IMG/VR virus record: IMGVR_UViG_3300017991_000029
Span: 1-44,238 of that record
Length of the DNA stretch: 44,238 nt
Origin: a virus
Reading direction: 5' to 3' (one strand)
Below, piece after piece: positions 10,672-32,266 of the stretch. The translations under genes and the position numbers were made by a program. The notes below the pieces were generated by a model. It was not told the origin of the DNA and ran no database searches. It was given only the letters and a program-made list of their open reading frames with translations. Position 1 is the first letter of the stretch. Each line of letters opens with the position of its first letter.

Positions 10672-12047
10672 CGAATAAATCTCCTTCGGAAGTGTTGAGG
10701 GCTTCCGGAATGAACGTACCAGAAGGTAAAACGGCAACACACGTGGACGGTTGGGTTAATTTCCTGACTGGTCTTGGTCTTGCCCAGCGTGACAAAAAGA
10801 AGAATACAATCTTTTCTGCTGACGGTGCCCTGGACTCCACGACCTTGGCGGAACTTTATAGAACAGACGGATTCAGCAAGAAAATTGTCGATCTGCCTGT
10901 TTATGAAATGCTCCGAGAGGGCTTTGAAGTAACAGGCGATACAGATAATGAGATAATCAACTATCTGGACGATCGGCAGTTGAATAAGGCTCTGTGGAAT
11001 TTCCTCACAGCGGACGGCTTATTCGGCGGAGCAATCCTTATACTTGGGTTAAACGACGGTGGCAAGCTGGAAGAGGAGTTGGATTTAAAGAGCCTGCAGT
11101 CAATCGACTGGTTCCGCGTCTACAACAGAAACTCAGTCAACAAGACAAACAGTAAAGTCACCGATCCGGAAAATCCCAGATTCGGTCTGACTTACCTGTA
11201 TGAAATCAATCCGAAAAGCGGATCGCCGTATAAGGTGCATTGGTCAAGGGTAATCGAACTCTCTGGTAGACCGATTCCCAGTGAATCTCTCAGCGCTCAA
11301 AATCAAGGGTGGGGTGACTCTGTGTTACTTGCGGCGTATGAGGCTTGCCGCAGTCTTGGCTCGATCTATTCCTATACAGAATCCATTATTGACGATTTTG
11401 TCACGACCATTATTTCTATGAAGGGTCTGGCTGATGCTATCGCAATGGGCAGAGAGAATGATCTCTATACTCGGCTACAGGTAATGGACATGGGGAAGTC
11501 CTTAATGTCAACCTTGTTGCTGGACGAGGAAGAATCATTTGAAAAGAAAACATCGACTGTAACCGGCCTGAGTGAATTGATCGATCGGTTTGTGGATCGC
11601 CTTAGTAGCCAGACCGGTATTCCTGTGCGTGTTCTCATGGGGAAACAGTCCGGTGGCCTGAATAATGAAGGTCAGGGCGAGACAAGAGACTGGTACGATA
11701 AGATTGCGGCACGTCAGCGTGAACAGTTACAGCCAATATTAGAGCGGATCATAGAACTTGCCATGATTTGCAGTCAAGGACCGACTCAGGGAAAAGAGAT
11801 CGAGAATTGGGCTATCGAGTTCAAGCCTCTGTGGCAGATGTCAGAGAAAGAGGAGGCCGAGGTTCGCAAGATTCAGGCTGAAACCGATCAGGTTTATATT
11901 GATTCAGGTGTTCTGGCTCCTGAAGAAGTTACGCTCTCCAGATTCGGCGGAGACAGCTATTCAACAGAGACCACATTGATTTTAGAGCCGGATCAGATCA
12001 GGGCAAATCTCAAGGGTAATCCTGAACCTACTGCTGACGAAGATTAA
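10668..12047 (+). CDS. Portal protein (DUF1073 / HI1409-type)
   Basis: This 459-residue protein overlaps the previous stop (ATGA). The signature of the family is visible as IPVRVLMGKQSGGLNNEGQ, then RDWYDKIAARQREQLQPILERI at about 320-365. The N-terminus has LYRTDGFSKKIVDLPVYEMLREG, also typical. Portals form a dodecameric ring at one capsid vertex through which DNA enters. Its place directly between terminase and the MuF-like gene supports the call. The length is normal. Confidence 0.92.
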   Translation: MTNKSPSEVLRASGMNVPEGKTATHVDGWVNFLTGLGLAQRDKKKNTIFSADGALDSTTLAELYRTDGFSKKIVDLPVYEMLREGFEVTGDTDNEIINYLDDRQLNKALWNFLTADGLFGGAILILGLNDGGKLEEELDLKSLQSIDWFRVYNRNSVNKTNSKVTDPENPRFGLTYLYEINPKSGSPYKVHWSRVIELSGRPIPSESLSAQNQGWGDSVLLAAYEACRSLGSIYSYTESIIDDFVTTIISMKGLADAIAMGRENDLYTRLQVMDMGKSLMSTLLLDEEESFEKKTSTVTGLSELIDRFVDRLSSQTGIPVRVLMGKQSGGLNNEGQGETRDWYDKIAARQREQLQPILERIIELAMICSQGPTQGKEIENWAIEFKPLWQMSEKEEAEVRKIQAETDQVYIDSGVLAPEEVTLSRFGGDSYSTETTLILEPDQIRANLKGNPEPTADED

Positions 12048-12058
12048 GGGGGTTATTA

Positions 12059-13099
12059 ATGCCAACTCCGAAAAAGAATGAATCTGAAAACGCATTTGTT
12101 CAGCGGTGTATTTCATTCGTTGTGAAGAATGAGGGGAAAAAGCCGGATCAGGCTTATGCTATCTGTAAAGGTCTATGGGATAAGAGTCAGAAGGATGTAA
12201 ATTCTGATAGCGTCCCATACGTCAAGAAAAATAGCACCCTTGAATATCTCAACGAGAGGAAGGCCGCAGGCGATTCCAGATTCAAGCGATCCAGAAGGAG
12301 AAAGCCCCCAAGGATGTTGCACCCTGTATCGATCGAGCGATCTTATCAGTCATTACTTCTGTCAATGGTTAATGAATGGCAGAAGATCACCAGTGAGACG
12401 CTTGAGGGCTTAATTCCACTATTGGCAAAGGAGGCCAGACAGGATCAATGGTCAGAAGGTGCCGAGCGGCTTATAGCGCAGTTGAGATTGAAGATCGAGG
12501 AAAAGCCGTTTCCTATCAATACCGTCTCTCAGCAAATAGGAGAGCGGACAGCAGAGTGGAATGATAAACAGTGGCGTAAGGTTATGAAGGCTACCCTGGG
12601 CGTTGACATCCTACAGTCTCAGCCTTGGTTGAAGGATCAGTTGAACAACTTTGTAAGTCAGAATGTGACGTTAATCAAGGATCTACAGTCTCAGACGCTG
12701 GATCGGATCGAGGGAACTGTCCAGAGAGGCTTTGCTCAAGGTCTCCGGCATGAGGAGATCATGAAACAGATTGTCGGTCGTGATAAGAGCGTTTTCAGCA
12801 AAGCGAAGAGCAGGGCGAGGCTTATTGCAAGAGATCAGGTCTCCAAGTTAAATGGCAATCTGACGAGGTTGAAGCAAAAAGAGATCGGTGTTACTCATTA
12901 CATCTGGCGCACATCTGAGGACGACAGGGTAAGGCCGACTCATAGAGCGAATAACGGGAAGATTTTCTCATGGGATGATCCACCTATTGAGACTGGACAT
13001 CCCGGACAAGACTATCAGTGCCGTTGTTGGGCGGAAGCATATTTCGGTGAGGAATTTGCGACCGAGGAGCAGATTAAGGCATTCAAGGCGGCGGCATAG
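12059..13099 (+). CDS. Minor head protein, SPP1 gp7 / Mu gpF-like
   Basis: This 346-residue protein has the PF04233-type core at about 215-335: RARLIARDQVSKLNGNLTR, then THYIWRTSEDDRVRPTHRANNGKIF, then HPGQDYQCRCWAEAYFG. The N-terminal 50 residues (ENAFVQRCISFVVKNEGKKPDQAYAICKGLW) look like the small domain often found at the start of such phage proteins. It is a minor capsid component usually near the portal vertex, needed for head morphogenesis. It follows portal directly, as usual. Confidence 0.9.
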   Translation: MPTPKKNESENAFVQRCISFVVKNEGKKPDQAYAICKGLWDKSQKDVNSDSVPYVKKNSTLEYLNERKAAGDSRFKRSRRRKPPRMLHPVSIERSYQSLLLSMVNEWQKITSETLEGLIPLLAKEARQDQWSEGAERLIAQLRLKIEEKPFPINTVSQQIGERTAEWNDKQWRKVMKATLGVDILQSQPWLKDQLNNFVSQNVTLIKDLQSQTLDRIEGTVQRGFAQGLRHEEIMKQIVGRDKSVFSKAKSRARLIARDQVSKLNGNLTRLKQKEIGVTHYIWRTSEDDRVRPTHRANNGKIFSWDDPPIETGHPGQDYQCRCWAEAYFGEEFATEEQIKAFKAAA

Positions 13100-14984: not shown

Positions 14985-15704
14985 ATGAGTGAATATGATC
15001 TTAATCAGGCCGCACCGTATGCCGGGATGAAATCGGATTCTCGCTTTGACGAGGTTAAGTCCTACGCCGCAGAAGAGGAAATTCAGTTCGGTTATGCAGT
15101 TGGTGCGGAAGCCGGTAACGTGGAGTCTGTAAGTCTGATCCGCAAGGATAACGCAAAGCTTGTCTTTGATGCAGATTTCGTTGCCGACAATGCAATCAAC
15201 GGCAAAGTCAACACTGTATCATGGGTGGAAGTCGATTTCGATACCGACCATGACACCACAGCGGCGGCTTTGGTAGTGGCAATCGGAAATCTGGCAGGGG
15301 TGACGTGTGTTCTTGATCCTGCAGACGCCAACAACAGGACATTTCTGATCGAGGCCGAGGGAACCACCATAGCAGTGACTGATGTTGCTGTAACCGGAGG
15401 CGCATCCCAGGCAGGGTCAACGGTAACGCTGTCAGGCGACAACTTGTTCAGAGGTATTGCGCTCAGCACACACAACGAGAACGGCAAGTATTTGGCAACA
15501 GATACAGTCAGCGTTCTTACCAAGGGGCAGGCTCATGTCGAGGTATCAGCCGCTGTTACTGCTGATGCCGATGCTTATGTGGACACAGCCACCAGCAAGT
15601 TCACGAGTGCTTCGTCCGGCAATATTCAGACTGGCGGAAAGTTCCGCTCGACCACAGCCGGTGCAGGAATCGCAGAAGTAGAGATCAACCTCCCGAATTT
15701 CTAA
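14985..15704 (+). CDS. Capsid decoration / structural cement protein with inserted repeat domain
   Basis: This 239-residue protein has AGGAGAGGCC before ATG 14985. The N-terminus (EEIQFGYAVGAE) and C-terminus (FRGIALSTHNENGKYLATDTVSVLTKGQAHVEV, ending in GAGIAEVEINL) match the small beta-sandwich cement proteins encoded just before major capsid genes. Residues 57-149 are an extra domain starting AKLVFDADFV and ending GGASQAGST. That domain recurs in the sheath (18838) and, more diverged, in baseplate J (26143). The protein would sit on the outer capsid surface. Confidence 0.85.
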   Translation: MSEYDLNQAAPYAGMKSDSRFDEVKSYAAEEEIQFGYAVGAEAGNVESVSLIRKDNAKLVFDADFVADNAINGKVNTVSWVEVDFDTDHDTTAAALVVAIGNLAGVTCVLDPADANNRTFLIEAEGTTIAVTDVAVTGGASQAGSTVTLSGDNLFRGIALSTHNENGKYLATDTVSVLTKGQAHVEVSAAVTADADAYVDTATSKFTSASSGNIQTGGKFRSTTAGAGIAEVEINLPNF

Positions 15705-18837: not shown

Positions 18838-20196
18838 ATGTCTGGACTCAGTGACATTGTAGAAGTAACCATAACAAGACAGGCTCAGCCAGTCTCAGCC
18901 GCAACCTTTTCGATCCCGTTAATACTTGGAGAGAGTGATATTCTCGATCCGAGCGGCTCCGGGAAAACGGCGTCCTATGCTTCGCTGTCCGAAATGGTAA
19001 GTGCCGGCTGGTCTGATGCAAACGAGGAGTACAAGGCCGCCGCCGCAATGTTCTCTCAGGATGTTAGCCCGAATACGGTTATCATTGGCAGAGTAGACAC
19101 AGCCGGTGGAGAGACGTTCAACGCGGCTCTCGATGCTATCCTGATATTACGTCAGGACTGGTATGCCATTGTAGCCTGCACCAGAGACAGTGCAACGACC
19201 GATGCGGCAAAGCTGGTTTTTGATGCTGATTTCGTAACCGGAAACACGATTGACGGTAAGGTCAATACTGTGGCGTGGGCTCAGGTTCCGTTCAATACGG
19301 ATCACGATACAACCGCCTCAGACCTTGAAACGGCGATCGGCGCTCTTGCCGGGGTAACGTGTACTCTGGATGCTGGCGATCCCACGAACCGGACGTTTGA
19401 TATTTCGGTATCAGGCTCAGAACTTGTCATTACAGATGTTGTAGTCGCCGGAGGAGCGTCCCAGGCGGGAAGCACTGTTAATTACGGAGACGACATCATT
19501 GACGTGGCACAGTGGGCACTTGCCAACGAAAAGCTGTTTATCACAGCTCTGGCAGATACCGCTATCAAAGAGGCTGGCGGAGGTATAGCCAAGGTTCTCA
19601 AGGATGCCGCAAATGACAGAGCGGCAGTAATCTTCTACGGTAACGCCGCTGGCGGAGATACAGCATTCACGCCTTATGCAGAGGCGGCTCTTATCGGAAA
19701 GATCCTTCCGAAAACTCCCGGATCGTATACTGCCATGTTCAAGACTTTGGCGACTGCAAAGCCGGACGTTCTGACCAGTGCCGAACTTTCGTATATCTGG
19801 AGCCATAACGCCAACAGTTACAATACTGTGGCTGGCATTAACATACTCCGGGAAGGCCAGACAGCAGAAGGGACTTTCATTGATACGCGGATCGGTGTTG
19901 ACTGGCTCGCCGCAAGGATTCAGGAGAGAATCTATCAGCGGTTTGTCGATCTTGACAAAATTCCGTTTACCGATGCTGGAGCGGCTGTCATTGAAGGAGA
20001 ACTGAGGGCACAGCTGGACGAGGCTATTGATGTAGGATTCATAGCCGAAGATCCTGCCTATACAGTCACGGTTCCCAAGGTCGCTGACGTTGACGATGCC
20101 GACAAGGCTAATCGCCTGTTACCGGACATCGAATTTGAGGCCACAGAGGCCGGTGCTATTCACAAGACGATCATCAGAGGTCGTATAGTCGTTTAA
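18838..20196 (+). CDS. Contractile tail sheath (DUF3383-type) with inserted repeat domain
   Basis: This 452-residue protein has MSGLSDIVEVTITRQAQPVSAATFSIPLIL at the start, EYKAAAAMFSQDVSPNTVIIGR, WALANEKLFITALAD and a C-terminal GVDWLAARIQERIYQRFVDLDKIPFTDAG. All are features of DUF3383 sheath proteins. Between the CTRDSATT loop and DDIIDVAQWAL, residues 124-216 form an extra domain. By hand alignment, 61 of 93 positions are identical to the domain in the decoration protein at 14985. Removing it leaves a continuous sheath. The sheath shows that this is a contractile-tail phage. Confidence 0.92.
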   Translation: MSGLSDIVEVTITRQAQPVSAATFSIPLILGESDILDPSGSGKTASYASLSEMVSAGWSDANEEYKAAAAMFSQDVSPNTVIIGRVDTAGGETFNAALDAILILRQDWYAIVACTRDSATTDAAKLVFDADFVTGNTIDGKVNTVAWAQVPFNTDHDTTASDLETAIGALAGVTCTLDAGDPTNRTFDISVSGSELVITDVVVAGGASQAGSTVNYGDDIIDVAQWALANEKLFITALADTAIKEAGGGIAKVLKDAANDRAAVIFYGNAAGGDTAFTPYAEAALIGKILPKTPGSYTAMFKTLATAKPDVLTSAELSYIWSHNANSYNTVAGINILREGQTAEGTFIDTRIGVDWLAARIQERIYQRFVDLDKIPFTDAGAAVIEGELRAQLDEAIDVGFIAEDPAYTVTVPKVADVDDADKANRLLPDIEFEATEAGAIHKTIIRGRIVV

Positions 20197-25786: not shown

Positions 25787-26146
25787 ATGCAGGACATAAA
25801 ACTTGACAAAACTACCCATGATGTCATTTTTGAAAATGGCGATCTGGTATTAATAAGCGGTCTGGACAGAGTTGAACAGCAAATTAAAATCCGGCTGTTA
25901 TTCTTTTACGGAGAGTGGTTTTTGAACAGCACTTTCGGAGTCCGCTATTATGAAGATGTCCTTGTCGGCAATCCGAATTTTGACCAGATCGAAGATATGT
26001 TAAAGGCGGAAATAGCCGATGTTGACAGCGTGAATGAGATAACAGAATTTTCAAGCAATTTTATCAGTTCTTCAAGACAGCTCAATGTAGAGTTTACCGT
26101 TAATACGGATTTCGGCACTCTTGAAGGATCGGAGGTATTAATATGA
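25787..26146 (+). CDS. Baseplate wedge protein, gp25/GPW-like
   Basis: This 119-residue protein has LDRVEQQIKIRLLFFYGEWFLNSTFGVRYYEDVL at about 25-58, followed by IEDMLKAEIADVDSVNEI. This is the GPW/gp25 (DUF2634-like) wedge pattern, including the conserved EWF and the helix leading to the sheath-initiating part. It connects wedge and sheath and precedes baseplate J as usual. Confidence 0.88.
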   Translation: MQDIKLDKTTHDVIFENGDLVLISGLDRVEQQIKIRLLFFYGEWFLNSTFGVRYYEDVLVGNPNFDQIEDMLKAEIADVDSVNEITEFSSNFISSSRQLNVEFTVNTDFGTLEGSEVLI

Positions 26147-27876
26147 GCGGCCTTAGTGAAACAGGTTTTGAGATAAAGAGGCTCGATCAGATTCAGTCTG
26201 CCATTGAGAACGGCCTTATTAACAAGCTTGGAACTCTTAATACAAATCCGGATTCTACGATCAGTCAGATCATTGGAATTATAGCGTATCAGCTTGCCTT
26301 AATCTGGGAAGAGCAACAGAACACGTATTTGAATACCTATCCGTCCAGCGCCAGCGGCGTATCTCTTGAGCGTGTCGCTGAATATATCGGTATCACAAGA
26401 TTACAGCCGACAGCCAGCACAGGGACTATTCAGCTTATGGCTGAATACTCGGACGCTCCTCTTGTGATCCTTGACGGCAAGCAGGCCAGTTCATCCAGCA
26501 ATGGAGAAGTGTTTGAATTGGTGGCGGATGCTACAATTCAGAAGTCTGCCGTTCAGAGATCACAATTTTTCCTTGAGGCTCCAACTCCGGGGCAGACATT
26601 CTCAATATTCATAAATTCGACCGAGTATGATATAACCGCTCTGTCAAGTGATGTTGAGGCAGTCGCAGAGCAGTTAAGGGACGAGATCAATACCGCTCAG
26701 AACAATGTAACAGCGGTTTCCAATCCGGAAGGTGAGGAGGGGTCAATAATCCTTACTGTCAATGATCTGTCAAGTACGTATTCTACGGATTATGGAGATC
26801 GCGTTGAGGACAGCGATATGAGGCTTTGGAGTCCGGGAACGGTTGTCAGCTTAAATCTGGGGCAGATCGTTGCTCCGGTTTATACGATCGATACGATCGA
26901 AACTCCTGTAAGCGGCTGGCAGGAAGTAACCAATTTGGCGGCTGTTACTCCGGGAAGGGCTCTTGAGACGGATGCAGAACTAAGGTCGAGAATGATTGAT
27001 TCTGTATATTCCGGCAACTCCACGCCGGATGCGATCCGGACGAAGGTTCTCAATGATGTTCCGGGTGTTACGGATGTTGTCGTTATCGAGAATGAATCGA
27101 ATACACGGATCTCAAGGCTGACATTCGATATTAATTTTGTGACCGGAAACAATATCGATATGGATGTCAACGGAGCGGCGATCACAACGGTTCCGTATAA
27201 CACAAGTCAAGCCCAGACAATGACTGATCTGGCTGATGAACTGTTAAATGATTCTGAGATATATGCAGTCAACATCGATCCGGAAGATACCAGAACTCTG
27301 GAGATTTACGCAGAAACGATCGTTATTGAAAATATCGTAGTGTCCGGAGGGGCTAATCAGGCGGACGGCAGATTTCTTCCGGGTGTTCCCGGTAAGGCAT
27401 TTGAAACAGTAGTGCAGGGAGCAACAGGACAGTATCAGGCCGTTGCCAATCGCATATTTGAAGTGAAACCGGCAGGCATACAGGCTTTCGGTGCTATCAA
27501 TGAGACTGTGACCGACAGCCAGGGCATAACTCATAACATTGGATTCAGCGAGCCGATAGATATTTATTCATGGGTGACTGTCAATATAACCAAGTATTCC
27601 GAGGAGGACTTTCCGAATGACGGTGTTGATCTTATCAAGCAGGCGATTGTAGATTATGGTTCAACTCTGGGGCTGAATAACGATCTTTTATATCAGCGGT
27701 TCATAGGCCATGTTTTTACAGTGCCGGGGATCGCAACGGTACAGATCAAGCTCTATACAACAACCAATGCTGGTAAGACTCCTGATCCTGCTGATTATGC
27801 ACAGGAGAATCGGGCGATTGGTGCGACAGAGCTTCCGCTGTTCGATGTTGCAAGAGTTATTGTAAACGAATTATAA
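26143..27876 (+). CDS. Baseplate J-like wedge protein with inserted repeat domain
   Basis: This 577-residue protein has TLNTNPDSTISQIIGIIAYQLALIWEEQQ near the start. AVTPGRALETDAELRSRMIDSVYSGNSTPDAIRTKVLNDVPGVTDVVVIENES at about 268-320 is the baseplate J core. Residues about 324-410 (TFDINFVTGNNIDMDVN to VVSGGANQADG) are an insertion related to the domain in the decoration and sheath proteins. The J core resumes at VPGKAFETVVQGATG. Residues about 145-215 form another beta domain (FSIFINSTEYDITALSSDVEAVAEQL) of similar topology but lower similarity. Confidence 0.9.
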   Translation: MSGLSETGFEIKRLDQIQSAIENGLINKLGTLNTNPDSTISQIIGIIAYQLALIWEEQQNTYLNTYPSSASGVSLERVAEYIGITRLQPTASTGTIQLMAEYSDAPLVILDGKQASSSSNGEVFELVADATIQKSAVQRSQFFLEAPTPGQTFSIFINSTEYDITALSSDVEAVAEQLRDEINTAQNNVTAVSNPEGEEGSIILTVNDLSSTYSTDYGDRVEDSDMRLWSPGTVVSLNLGQIVAPVYTIDTIETPVSGWQEVTNLAAVTPGRALETDAELRSRMIDSVYSGNSTPDAIRTKVLNDVPGVTDVVVIENESNTRISRLTFDINFVTGNNIDMDVNGAAITTVPYNTSQAQTMTDLADELLNDSEIYAVNIDPEDTRTLEIYAETIVIENIVVSGGANQADGRFLPGVPGKAFETVVQGATGQYQAVANRIFEVKPAGIQAFGAINETVTDSQGITHNIGFSEPIDIYSWVTVNITKYSEEDFPNDGVDLIKQAIVDYGSTLGLNNDLLYQRFIGHVFTVPGIATVQIKLYTTTNAGKTPDPADYAQENRAIGATELPLFDVARVIVNEL

Positions 27877-29257: not shown

Positions 29258-32200
29258 ATGCCAGCGTTTTACAGAAAAAGAAATATCGCAACGCGAGTGA
29301 CTGTCCCGCTGATTGACTCTTCGAGTCGTCCGGATTATTATTCGGGAACGCTGACTTCGCCGACGATAAATATTTATAAGTCAGGCGACGGAAACACCGG
29401 AACAACTCAGACAACGTCCGGCGTCACAGTCACCGAAAAGGGTTCAACTGGTTTATGGGAAATATATCTTCCGCAAGCTGTGATGAATCTCGGCTCGGGT
29501 TATACTGATATGATAATCAAGATTTCTCACTCGTCAATTGACGAACAGACAATTGAAATTGAAACAAGTCTCCGCGCTTCAATGGTTGATTTATTGCAGG
29601 ACGAAAACAATACGTCAGCATTCAAAGCAATCGGAAAAGGGAGCGGAAACGGCGCTTCGTTTATCGGCGGAGATACCGGCGACGGCTTGCTTACTGCGGG
29701 TGGAGCGTCTGGCGGTAGTGGTATAAACGCCTATGCACAGTCAGGTAATGATGACGGTATTTCTGCAAAGGGAGCCGGAAGCGGAATAGGTATATATTCT
29801 AAAGGTGGAGCAACTGGTATTGGCCTCAAGGCTGAAGGCGGTGACACTTCCGGTGACGGCCTTGTTGCAAGGTCGGCTGTTGCCGGTAATGGCAGGGGTT
29901 TTTATGCTCTTGGCAGTGGCGGATTTGAAGGACTCTATGCTCAAGGCTCTTCAAATGCTCCGGGAATCCGTGCCAAAGGAGCCGGTTCATTTCCGGGAAT
30001 TAAAGCTGAAGGTGAAAACGGCATTCTGGCTGTTGCTGATACCAGCTCTGGAGAATCCGGCATTAAAGCGGTTGGTGACGGTGTTGGTCACGGTATAGAA
30101 GGTGACGGCGGAGCGAATGGTAACGGTATTCACGGTGGAGGGAAGAACGGTATAAGCGGAACCGCCACAGAGGGTAGCGGAAACGGAATACAAGGTATCG
30201 GCGGAACATCGAGTGGAAACGGAATATACGGCGAAGCTCTGACTGACGGTAGCGGCTTAAAGTGTCAGGGCAATGGTGTTGCTCCCGGTATTCATGCGAT
30301 TGGCGGAGCGACGGCCAGCGGACTTTTAGCTGTCGGTGGTGGCACTTCCGGTCATGGCATCAAGGCTGAAGGCTCGGCAACAGACGGTCATGGATTCTTT
30401 GCAGAGGCGAAGGGAACCGCTTCCGGTGTTCATGGTATATATGGCCTTGGTAAAAATCAGGGTGACGGCCTCAAGGCGGTTGGCGGATCAGACGGTGCCG
30501 GCATTCACGGTGTTGCAACTGGTACATCAATTTCTAAGGGCGGTATCTGGGGTGAAGTAGCCAGCGGTCAAGGTGACGGAATGAGGCTTGACGGTGGAAC
30601 TCCGGGCAAGGATATTAATGCCAACGAGATAGATCAGATTGACAGCGTTGTAGACTCTATCCAGATCGATACCAACAACATAGAAACGAAAGTGGACGGC
30701 GTTAAGGCTAAGACTGACAATCTGCCTTCCGATCCTGCTGACCAGAGCGAGGTTGAAGCGGCTATATCGACAAGTGAAACAAACGTGATTGCAGAGGTCA
30801 ATGCCAATGAGGCAAAGATCGATGCTCTGAACGATGTCAGCACCGCAGAAGTGCAGACGGCTTGTGACGATGCTCTGGATGCCTACGATTCAGCCGGTGG
30901 GGTAGCCAAAGAAAATAGCGTGTTGGCGATTCAGAACAATACTCGGTTTACCACGAGTATAGCGGGTCACTATCTGATTCCTTCTGCCGGCAGTACTGTT
31001 TATAAGCTGGTAGCGAGGTTCTACGACGGAGACGGTTCTCCGGAGGATGTGGACGACAACGATGTCGGCCTTGATCTCGATACCGCAGACGGAACAGACA
31101 AGAATGCAATTCTCTACAAGGAATTTGCTTGCACCAACGCTCTTGGCAACTCCGGCTTTGCAGGACATAAGAAGCTTGAGCATGGATCGACCGGAGAATA
31201 TTTCTGTTATATCAAGATTGCAAGCACTGAGAGCGTGGCTCAGTTTATGTACGGCTTTAAGCTTGAGGAAGTGTCTGTTGAATTTGGTTATTCCAGAACG
31301 AACCAAGTTCTTGAAGATGATCCAGCCACAGTGGATGCCAACATTGTTGAAGTCAACAGCGTGTCTGTGAGTGACATAGACGACTTCAAGGCAGATGTCT
31401 CGGCTCTCGCAAGTCAGGCCAGTGTCGATACCATTGACGGCAATGTGGACTCGATCGTTGCCAAGTTGCCGACAGGGACTATTTCTGATTTCGATGAATC
31501 TACCGATAAGGTTGAGATTTCCGGAACCAAGAATACTCTGGACGATCTTAACGATCTTTCACAGGCAGGGGCAGAATCGGCGTGTGACTCCTCGCTTGCC
31601 TCGTATGATCCGCCGACAAAAGCCGAAATGGACTCAGGCTTTGCCGCATTGAATGATGTGTCTACTGCAGAGGTGGAAGCGGCGTGTGACGCATCTCTCG
31701 TGTCTTACGATCCGCCTACAAAAGCAGAGTTGGACGCTGTGGAAGTCAAGGTCGATGGAGTAAAAGCAAAAACCGATGATCTCAATTTCAATGGAGACGG
31801 AACGGCAAAACTCCTTGTGGACATCAGAGACGTGAACGATGTTGCTGTCTCAGACATAGATGACTTTAAAGCGGACGTCTCAGGTCTGGCAAGTCAGGCC
31901 AGTGTTGATACGATCGATGGCAATGTTGACTCTATACTGGCCGATACTACGGCAATTCTGGTAGATACCGGAACTGACATTCCGGCTCTTATTGCGGCCT
32001 TGAATGATCTCAGCGAGGCACAGGTTAAGGATCAGATCGATGCCGCCCTGGACACTGATAGCGGAACTGAACTTGGCATAGGTGTTCCAGCGAAGGATGC
32101 GCCTCTCAGGGAACAGATCCAGCTCCTGTTCATGGCACTCAGGAACAAGAAGCATCAGACGTCTAACCTGTATGAAATCTATGACGATGCCGGTGTTGTG

Positions 32201-32266
32201 ATCTCAAAGGCGGCTCTGGCTATCTCAGATGCCGAAGTCACCAGAGACAAGCTTGTAGCGGGGTAA
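29258..32266 (+). CDS. Long tail fibre with Gly-rich repeats and coiled coil
   Basis: This 1002-residue protein is built in sections. Residues 1-110 are a beta-rich attachment domain. Residues about 125-455 are a repeat region with units of about 15-20 residues of the type GNGIxAxGG / GxGIKAEGG. Residues about 460-540 are helical (IDSVVDSIQIDTNNIETKVDG). Next comes a beta domain (VYKLVARFYDGDGSPEDV). The C-terminal part repeats two motifs: DIDDFKADVS-LASQASVDTIDG (twice) and SYDPPTKAE (twice). The Gly-rich part resembles polyglycine-type fibre segments. GATC sites appear only from 30486 on, so the gene looks like a chimera. Confidence 0.85.
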   Translation: MPAFYRKRNIATRVTVPLIDSSSRPDYYSGTLTSPTINIYKSGDGNTGTTQTTSGVTVTEKGSTGLWEIYLPQAVMNLGSGYTDMIIKISHSSIDEQTIEIETSLRASMVDLLQDENNTSAFKAIGKGSGNGASFIGGDTGDGLLTAGGASGGSGINAYAQSGNDDGISAKGAGSGIGIYSKGGATGIGLKAEGGDTSGDGLVARSAVAGNGRGFYALGSGGFEGLYAQGSSNAPGIRAKGAGSFPGIKAEGENGILAVADTSSGESGIKAVGDGVGHGIEGDGGANGNGIHGGGKNGISGTATEGSGNGIQGIGGTSSGNGIYGEALTDGSGLKCQGNGVAPGIHAIGGATASGLLAVGGGTSGHGIKAEGSATDGHGFFAEAKGTASGVHGIYGLGKNQGDGLKAVGGSDGAGIHGVATGTSISKGGIWGEVASGQGDGMRLDGGTPGKDINANEIDQIDSVVDSIQIDTNNIETKVDGVKAKTDNLPSDPADQSEVEAAISTSETNVIAEVNANEAKIDALNDVSTAEVQTACDDALDAYDSAGGVAKENSVLAIQNNTRFTTSIAGHYLIPSAGSTVYKLVARFYDGDGSPEDVDDNDVGLDLDTADGTDKNAILYKEFACTNALGNSGFAGHKKLEHGSTGEYFCYIKIASTESVAQFMYGFKLEEVSVEFGYSRTNQVLEDDPATVDANIVEVNSVSVSDIDDFKADVSALASQASVDTIDGNVDSIVAKLPTGTISDFDESTDKVEISGTKNTLDDLNDLSQAGAESACDSSLASYDPPTKAEMDSGFAALNDVSTAEVEAACDASLVSYDPPTKAELDAVEVKVDGVKAKTDDLNFNGDGTAKLLVDIRDVNDVAVSDIDDFKADVSGLASQASVDTIDGNVDSILADTTAILVDTGTDIPALIAALNDLSEAQVKDQIDAALDTDSGTELGIGVPAKDAPLREQIQLLFMALRNKKHQTSNLYEIYDDAGVVISKAALAISDAEVTRDKLVAG

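Follow-up and report, generated by a model that had tools for sequence, protein, structure and literature searches.

The window analyzed here, a whole stretch of viral DNA of 44,238 nucleotides (IMG/VR record IMGVR_UViG_3300017991_000029), encodes a cement protein of the head, a tail sheath protein and a baseplate J protein, and an earlier note, made from the letters alone, had proposed that all three hold one and the same domain of about 90 residues. Among domains that recur in unrelated virion proteins, it is mainly Ig-like folds that have been described. The locus raises the question of whether the three segments are indeed related, how they came to sit in proteins of head, tail and baseplate, and what they might do there.

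Three homologous segments in the window

The genes and the segments inserted in them are collected in Table 1. Aligned without gaps, the cement and sheath segments share exactly 61 of 93 residues, the figure obtained earlier by hand, and in a single-sequence search (phmmer) the sheath copy finds the cement copy with an E-value of 2.5e-34. The diverged copy claimed for J was recovered from the sheath copy at 2.5e-10 and, used as the query, finds the sheath copy at 2e-10. An HMM built without any copy from the window detected the sheath, cement and J segments at 2.1e-30, 5e-28 and 4.4e-24 (Z=10000), and another built only from the cement copies of other viruses detected the sheath (9e-33) and J (6e-21) segments. 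When 6,820 shuffled ORFs of the window were searched with the HMM lacking window copies, one match at E<=10 was obtained. Pairwise and profile comparisons thus bear out the homology of the three segments, and since cement, sheath and J are non-homologous by Pfam and PHROGs, the domain is common to unrelated virion proteins. A search across the window found no fourth copy. Pfam, PHROGs and NCBIfam hold no model of the domain, sequence searches of solved structures gave no significant match to it, and literature searches for domains shared among the virion proteins of one genome gave nothing on it.

Table 1. Domain-bearing genes of the window and the segments inserted in them.
Feature	Position	Strand	Size or location	Family and matches
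Cement/decoration protein, head	14985..15704	+	239 aa	E217 gp24/Pam3 gp6 family; PF22758 Phage_cement 4.9e-17, phrog_563 3e-14
Domain copy 1	15153..15431	+	Residues 57-149, inserted in cement protein	
Tail sheath protein	18838..20196	+	452 aa	DUF3383 family; phrog_205 3.4e-79, PF11863 1.4e-26
Domain copy 2	19207..19485	+	Sheath residues 124-216, between core strand and next helix	
Baseplate J/wedge protein	26143..27876	+	577 aa	phrog_6 1.2e-47, PF04865 1.6e-12
Second, different small domain in J	26572..26796	+	ORF residues 150-224	Flagellin-IN-like, YTVTINGT type
Domain copy 3, diverged	27112..27378	+	Residues 324-412 of J ORF, inserted in baseplate J	

The second small domain of J matches profile A4 (8.9e-22; 12 sequences, the window's J among them) and is probably native to the J lineage of the window. 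Solved homologues of this J protein are gp88 (9zd7) and Bas63 wedge 2, while the sheath core resembles the solved contractile sheaths of Sf14, PhiTE, Pam3 and E217 in Foldseek; a reliable alignment of the cement insertion site with solved E217 gp24 was not obtained. Downstream of the baseplate genes, a 1002-aa ORF (29258-32266) has no PHROGs match; its location makes it a candidate for a tail fibre or spike.

The DNA of the cement and sheath copies had also been described as visibly alike. It is 62.7% identical within the domain, with sharp edges: identity is 87% over the first 30 domain bases and 13-37%, in 30-base steps, in the flanking DNA, with 20-33% directly next to the domain. However, this likeness only mirrors that of the proteins, because codon identity is at chance level (22 identical codons at the 61 shared residues against 21.7 expected from codon usage) and silent sites are saturated (37% identity at the third codon positions of these residues; NG86 dS undefined). 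The saturated silent sites rule out a recent duplication or gene conversion within this genome; the transfer between cement and sheath is therefore old, and the copies have been kept by selection.

Insertion sites and distribution

The earlier note had allowed that ordinary sheaths, cement proteins and J proteins might all contain the segment as native sequence. The phrog_205 alignment does run through much of the region, and some extra domain sits there in many DUF3383 sheaths. Nevertheless, near-full-length orthologues without the domain occur in each family, namely 23 sheaths, four cement proteins (150-170 aa, at loci L084, L110, L126 and L134) and 12 J proteins; sheaths of 350-360 aa have the site closed. 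The window sheath is 44% identical over its core to those of L006 and L004, in which the insertion site is closed, and at the point occupied by the domain in the window's J, solved gp88 goes from residue 328 straight to 334. The claim that the segment interrupts a continuous core in sheath and J is thus upheld. These empty sites in relatives, together with the rejection of a single origin of the sheath copies (see below), leave native sequence of the three families with next to no probability, and the empty-site orthologues rule it out as ordinary native sequence.

Mapped onto unoccupied references, the sheath insertions lie at about four places (after residues 41, 96-97, 115-121 and 144-150), those in cement at two (58 and 110) and those in J at two (175-183 and 329-331); a third apparent J site, at 342, is probably alignment slack. 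In some relatives the sheath region holds other small domains, of the IN-like YTVTINGT type or of an HNLxxG...YNGTF type. The latter (HNLxxGxxVTVxGF..YNGTF) is an unrelated insert found in the same region of the sheaths of L031:5308-6582, L042, L055 and L077; PHROGs finds the stretch in head proteins too (phrog_5838), which may make it a further domain common to several virion proteins.

Searches of viral contigs and of genome, phage and plasmid collections yielded 146 copies in 127 proteins at 89 loci, some of which overlap on one contig and most of which are metagenomic fragments. The 133 distinct near-full-length copies are distributed among cement (60), DUF3383 sheath (43), baseplate J (19), head-completion/collar (5) and tail terminator (3) proteins, PF04984 sheaths (2) and one unassigned protein, with classes that rest on family models (Pfam/PHROGs) and a few cement assignments set by hand from size, position and low scores. 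The search in other virion proteins suggested earlier was thus productive, adding head-completion and terminator proteins and a second sheath family, PF04984, which carries the domain in Rhizobium phages; at least five non-homologous host families, plus this second sheath family, are represented. At the loci with both genes, the domain is in cement and sheath in 23, in cement only in 19 and in sheath only in three, counts that are not frequencies as the loci were picked for having a copy. As many as seven copies occur per virus: one viral contig, L105 (4274-18121), has them in four proteins (one in cement, one in head-completion, three in sheath and two in J). Tandem copies occur in sheaths and J.

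Among named phages, convincing matches came only from five Rhizobium phages of ~193 kb, where the domain is located in the sheath; that of RHph_N46 (PF04984 family, 776 aa) has two copies, L013:11566-11814, which is diverged, and 11998-12297. RHph_N46 and RHEph12 are cultured carriers of the domain. The one plasmid match, Criblamydia sequanensis plasmid 1 (L091, NZ_LK031773.1), has copies in the same three protein types as the window. This plasmid, on which a phage gene group had already been noted (PMC7846284), combines ParA and DnaB-like genes with genes for head, sheath, baseplate and spike that are arranged as in a myophage, and looks like a phage-plasmid of a chlamydia. The protein encoded by L109:3227-4297 (357 aa), for which neither Pfam nor PHROGs gave a match, holds the domain near its C-terminus (residues 248-338); its remainder looks like a beta-sandwich lectin-like fibre candidate. 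L012 (JAGLZG010000078.1), with a cement protein near that of the window and a domain 73-74% identical, is filed under a Nanoarchaeota MAG and may be a phage contig that ended up in the bin of another organism.

Lateral exchange of the domain

A maximum-likelihood tree was built from the 133 copies; its columns are few and many of its forks unresolved. On this tree the host protein has to change 34 times, where the least possible is 6 and shuffled labels give a mean of 61. Even when only the well-supported branches are counted, there must have been at least 10 changes for cement, at least eight for sheath and at least three for J, and a single clade of all sheath copies is rejected (p 3e-62). 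The domain has been exchanged laterally and not inherited with each host protein. Particularly, the window's sheath copy groups with the cement copies of L004, L006, L007 and L012 (99/78), the other sheaths match it at 49% at best, and close relatives of the window have a sheath without the domain, all of which supports its descent from cement-type copies. The window's J copy groups, on a long branch, with three cement copies (97/98).

The segment had been read as an intragenomic mobile domain. Not only is it a discrete inserted module, but its sheath copy is also of cement-type descent; however, it is neither a recent duplication nor confined to this genome. Copies in different proteins of the same virus have a likeness of 0.362, against 0.347 between viruses, and 87 of 2000 permutations gave a same-virus value as high. 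General intragenomic homogenisation is rejected, the effect being only marginal, and most of the spread is therefore old or between viruses. Since same-virus copies are overall only slightly more alike than chance, the cement/sheath pair of the window is the clearest case of such likeness and not a typical one.

In distant pairs of cement proteins, the domain is conserved above the core in 1010 of 1032, and so appears to be under constraint; in close cement pairs the core is as conserved as the domain, or more, and sheath pairs show no trend of the domain being conserved above the core. Residues N13, T36, G83 and Q86 are conserved and may be structural in role.

Predicted fold and possible role

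AlphaFold2, run on the domain (70 copies), returned a compact model with a pLDDT of 98, in which strands at 2-5, 13-19, 50-54, 63-68, 75-82 and 89-92 accompany one helix of 13 residues (33-45). In the model of the full sheath (pLDDT 86), core strand 110-113 precedes the domain and helix 216-229 follows it; the linkers, at 117-120 and near 216, are of low confidence. Copies are acidic in all host proteins (mean net charge -6 to -9). The one strong match in BFVD, A0A7S5REQ2 (773 aa, 38% identity, TMq 0.83), is probably a Rhizobium phage sheath, from its size and identity. Beyond the domain's own family the fold matches are weak (E 0.017 for the best in the PDB; TM 0.33-0.65): Foldseek TMq values are 0.58 for the A-1(L) sheath, 0.65 for a P-SCSP1u portal-tail chain, 0.54-0.61 for the T7 nozzle and 0.33-0.58 for flagellin/FliD outer domains, none of them at E<=0.001. 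The predicted fold may thus bear a weak resemblance to flagellin/FliD outer domains and to insertion domains of phage sheaths and nozzles. At the sequence level, PF07196 (Flagellin_IN) gave no match to the domain up to E 1 (P0001, P0002), its weak match in the L105 sheath being a stretch that neighbours the domain; profile comparison of the domain with the IN-like group is suggestive only (E 2e-4, probability 46%), and the link to the DUF3383 sheath gp76 is weak (E 0.46). Membership of the Ig-like family was considered as well, and is ruled out by the helix between the predicted strands and by the sheath, nozzle, flagellin and FliD neighbours; the domain has no Ig-type Pfam match, and antibody chains appear among the Foldseek matches only at E>2 and prob<0.1.

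With a probability of about 0.55, we read the segment as a shuffled, solvent-facing accessory module, analogous to the Ig-like domains of phages, that may provide multivalent weak adhesion. It would be an autonomous domain of ~90 residues with a flagellin/FliD outer-domain-like fold, whose first and last strands lie at the chain ends, an arrangement that lets it be spliced into a loop of an already complete protein. Phages would have put it repeatedly into loops of cement, collar/head-completion, terminator, sheath and J proteins, old recombination copying it between virion genes and later losses removing it; in this virus, a cement-type lineage would have given rise to the sheath copy. Because host cores exist with or without it, the domain most likely has no job in core assembly. 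Its shuffled, optional occurrence at multiple sites and in multiple hosts, the tandem arrays and the other sheath-loop inserts fit a solvent-facing accessory domain, and we infer both this exposure and an adhesive role. Many identical weak-binding patches might then be displayed simultaneously on head, neck, tail and baseplate, making multivalent, low-affinity contact with glycans or proteins of the host surface or the environment ahead of specific receptor binding.

Among possible functions, weak multivalent adhesion leads with about one half, followed by stabilisation with one quarter and, lower still, fibre docking. Two of the precedents named below, the capsid contact of a FliD-like domain in ΦcrAss001 and the fibre-holding wedge domain of A-1(L), weigh against adhesion. 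As a stabilising module, the inserted domains would act as additional cement, touching adjacent subunits and making the lattices of capsid and sheath stiffer. Precedents exist: E217 gp24 trimers form a cage, and cement proteins already stabilise (PMC10329688); the FliD-like FD domain of ΦcrAss001 gp36 touches the major capsid protein (PMC10172136); and a tail-stabilising role has been proposed for extra domains of sheaths (PMC9230969). Nevertheless, with about four sites in sheath, two in cement and two in J, and subunits of differing symmetry, a common neighbour surface is unlikely, which would argue against one shared lattice contact; moreover, relatives manage without the domain, and we find stabilisation credible but unlikely. 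A common docking site, the domain being a socket for one fibre or whisker on head, neck, tail and baseplate, strikes us as improbable. One shared ligand would fit the same domain in all these places, and the wedge insertion domain of A-1(L) holds a long tail fibre with an arm along the sheath (PMC10966104), but copies within one genome are nearly as diverged as those between genomes, which is unexpected for one co-evolving partner, and many viruses have the domain in cement and not in the sheath.

Least probable among these roles is a neutral or near-neutral filler, a well-folded domain that spreads by illegitimate recombination, without use, among loops that tolerate insertions. Patchy presence and the different inserts in the same sheath region of relatives would be expected of it; strong conservation of residues across saturated silent sites, a domain that outlasts the core of distant cement proteins, and as many as seven copies per virus speak against it. 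Taken one step further, the reading as an adhesive accessory module would make this undescribed, flagellin-outer-domain-like module a coat patch in general use among contractile phages of the environment, shuffled between the exposed layers of the particle so that one binding chemistry is common to head, neck, sheath and baseplate. We offer this extension tentatively, as possible though rather doubtful; if it holds, the whole particle, beyond its fibres, would be adhesive to hosts or surroundings.

Whatever its role, the domain is a further, uncatalogued shared family with another predicted fold, distributed over five families of host protein and present in as many as seven copies in one virus, and would name many unannotated stretches in environmental phage proteins. 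The clean pairs of orthologues with and without it, available in three host families, make the role of surface accessory domains, and how they move between structural genes, directly askable.

The closest known parallel is that of the Ig-like domains on virion proteins of tailed phages (Fraser et al., 2006, as cited in PMC13320782 and PMC9230969), which are likewise small, optional, laterally exchanged and present in unrelated virion proteins, often sheaths, and for which weak surface binding has been proposed. Unlike them, the domain described here has a predicted fold of strands round a 13-residue helix, and sits inside its host proteins, mostly in uncultured viruses. Extra domains of sheaths lie away from the tube, with adhesion or stability proposed (PMC9230969). 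Binding to a host receptor has been described for tail tubular protein B of a T7-like Vibrio phage, with no part of the protein singled out as the one that binds (PMC7241545); among the Foldseek neighbours of our domain is the T7 nozzle. The FD domain of ΦcrAss001 gp36 is similarly flagellar-cap-like and inserted in a capsid auxiliary protein, but it has 163 residues, is reported from one protein and contacts the capsid (PMC10172136), a likeness rather than an established homology. Flagellin D2/D3, the FliD outer domains and Flagellin_IN (PF07196) are Foldseek neighbours that belong to flagella, whereas the present domain belongs to virions and has no PF07196 match. The insertion domains of the A-1(L) sheath (8kee), P-SCSP1u (8i4m), the T7 nozzle and gp76 (9zdk) resemble our domain in predicted fold and are inserted at comparable positions. 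To our knowledge, each of these is found in a single protein family, whereas the domain described here occurs in five.
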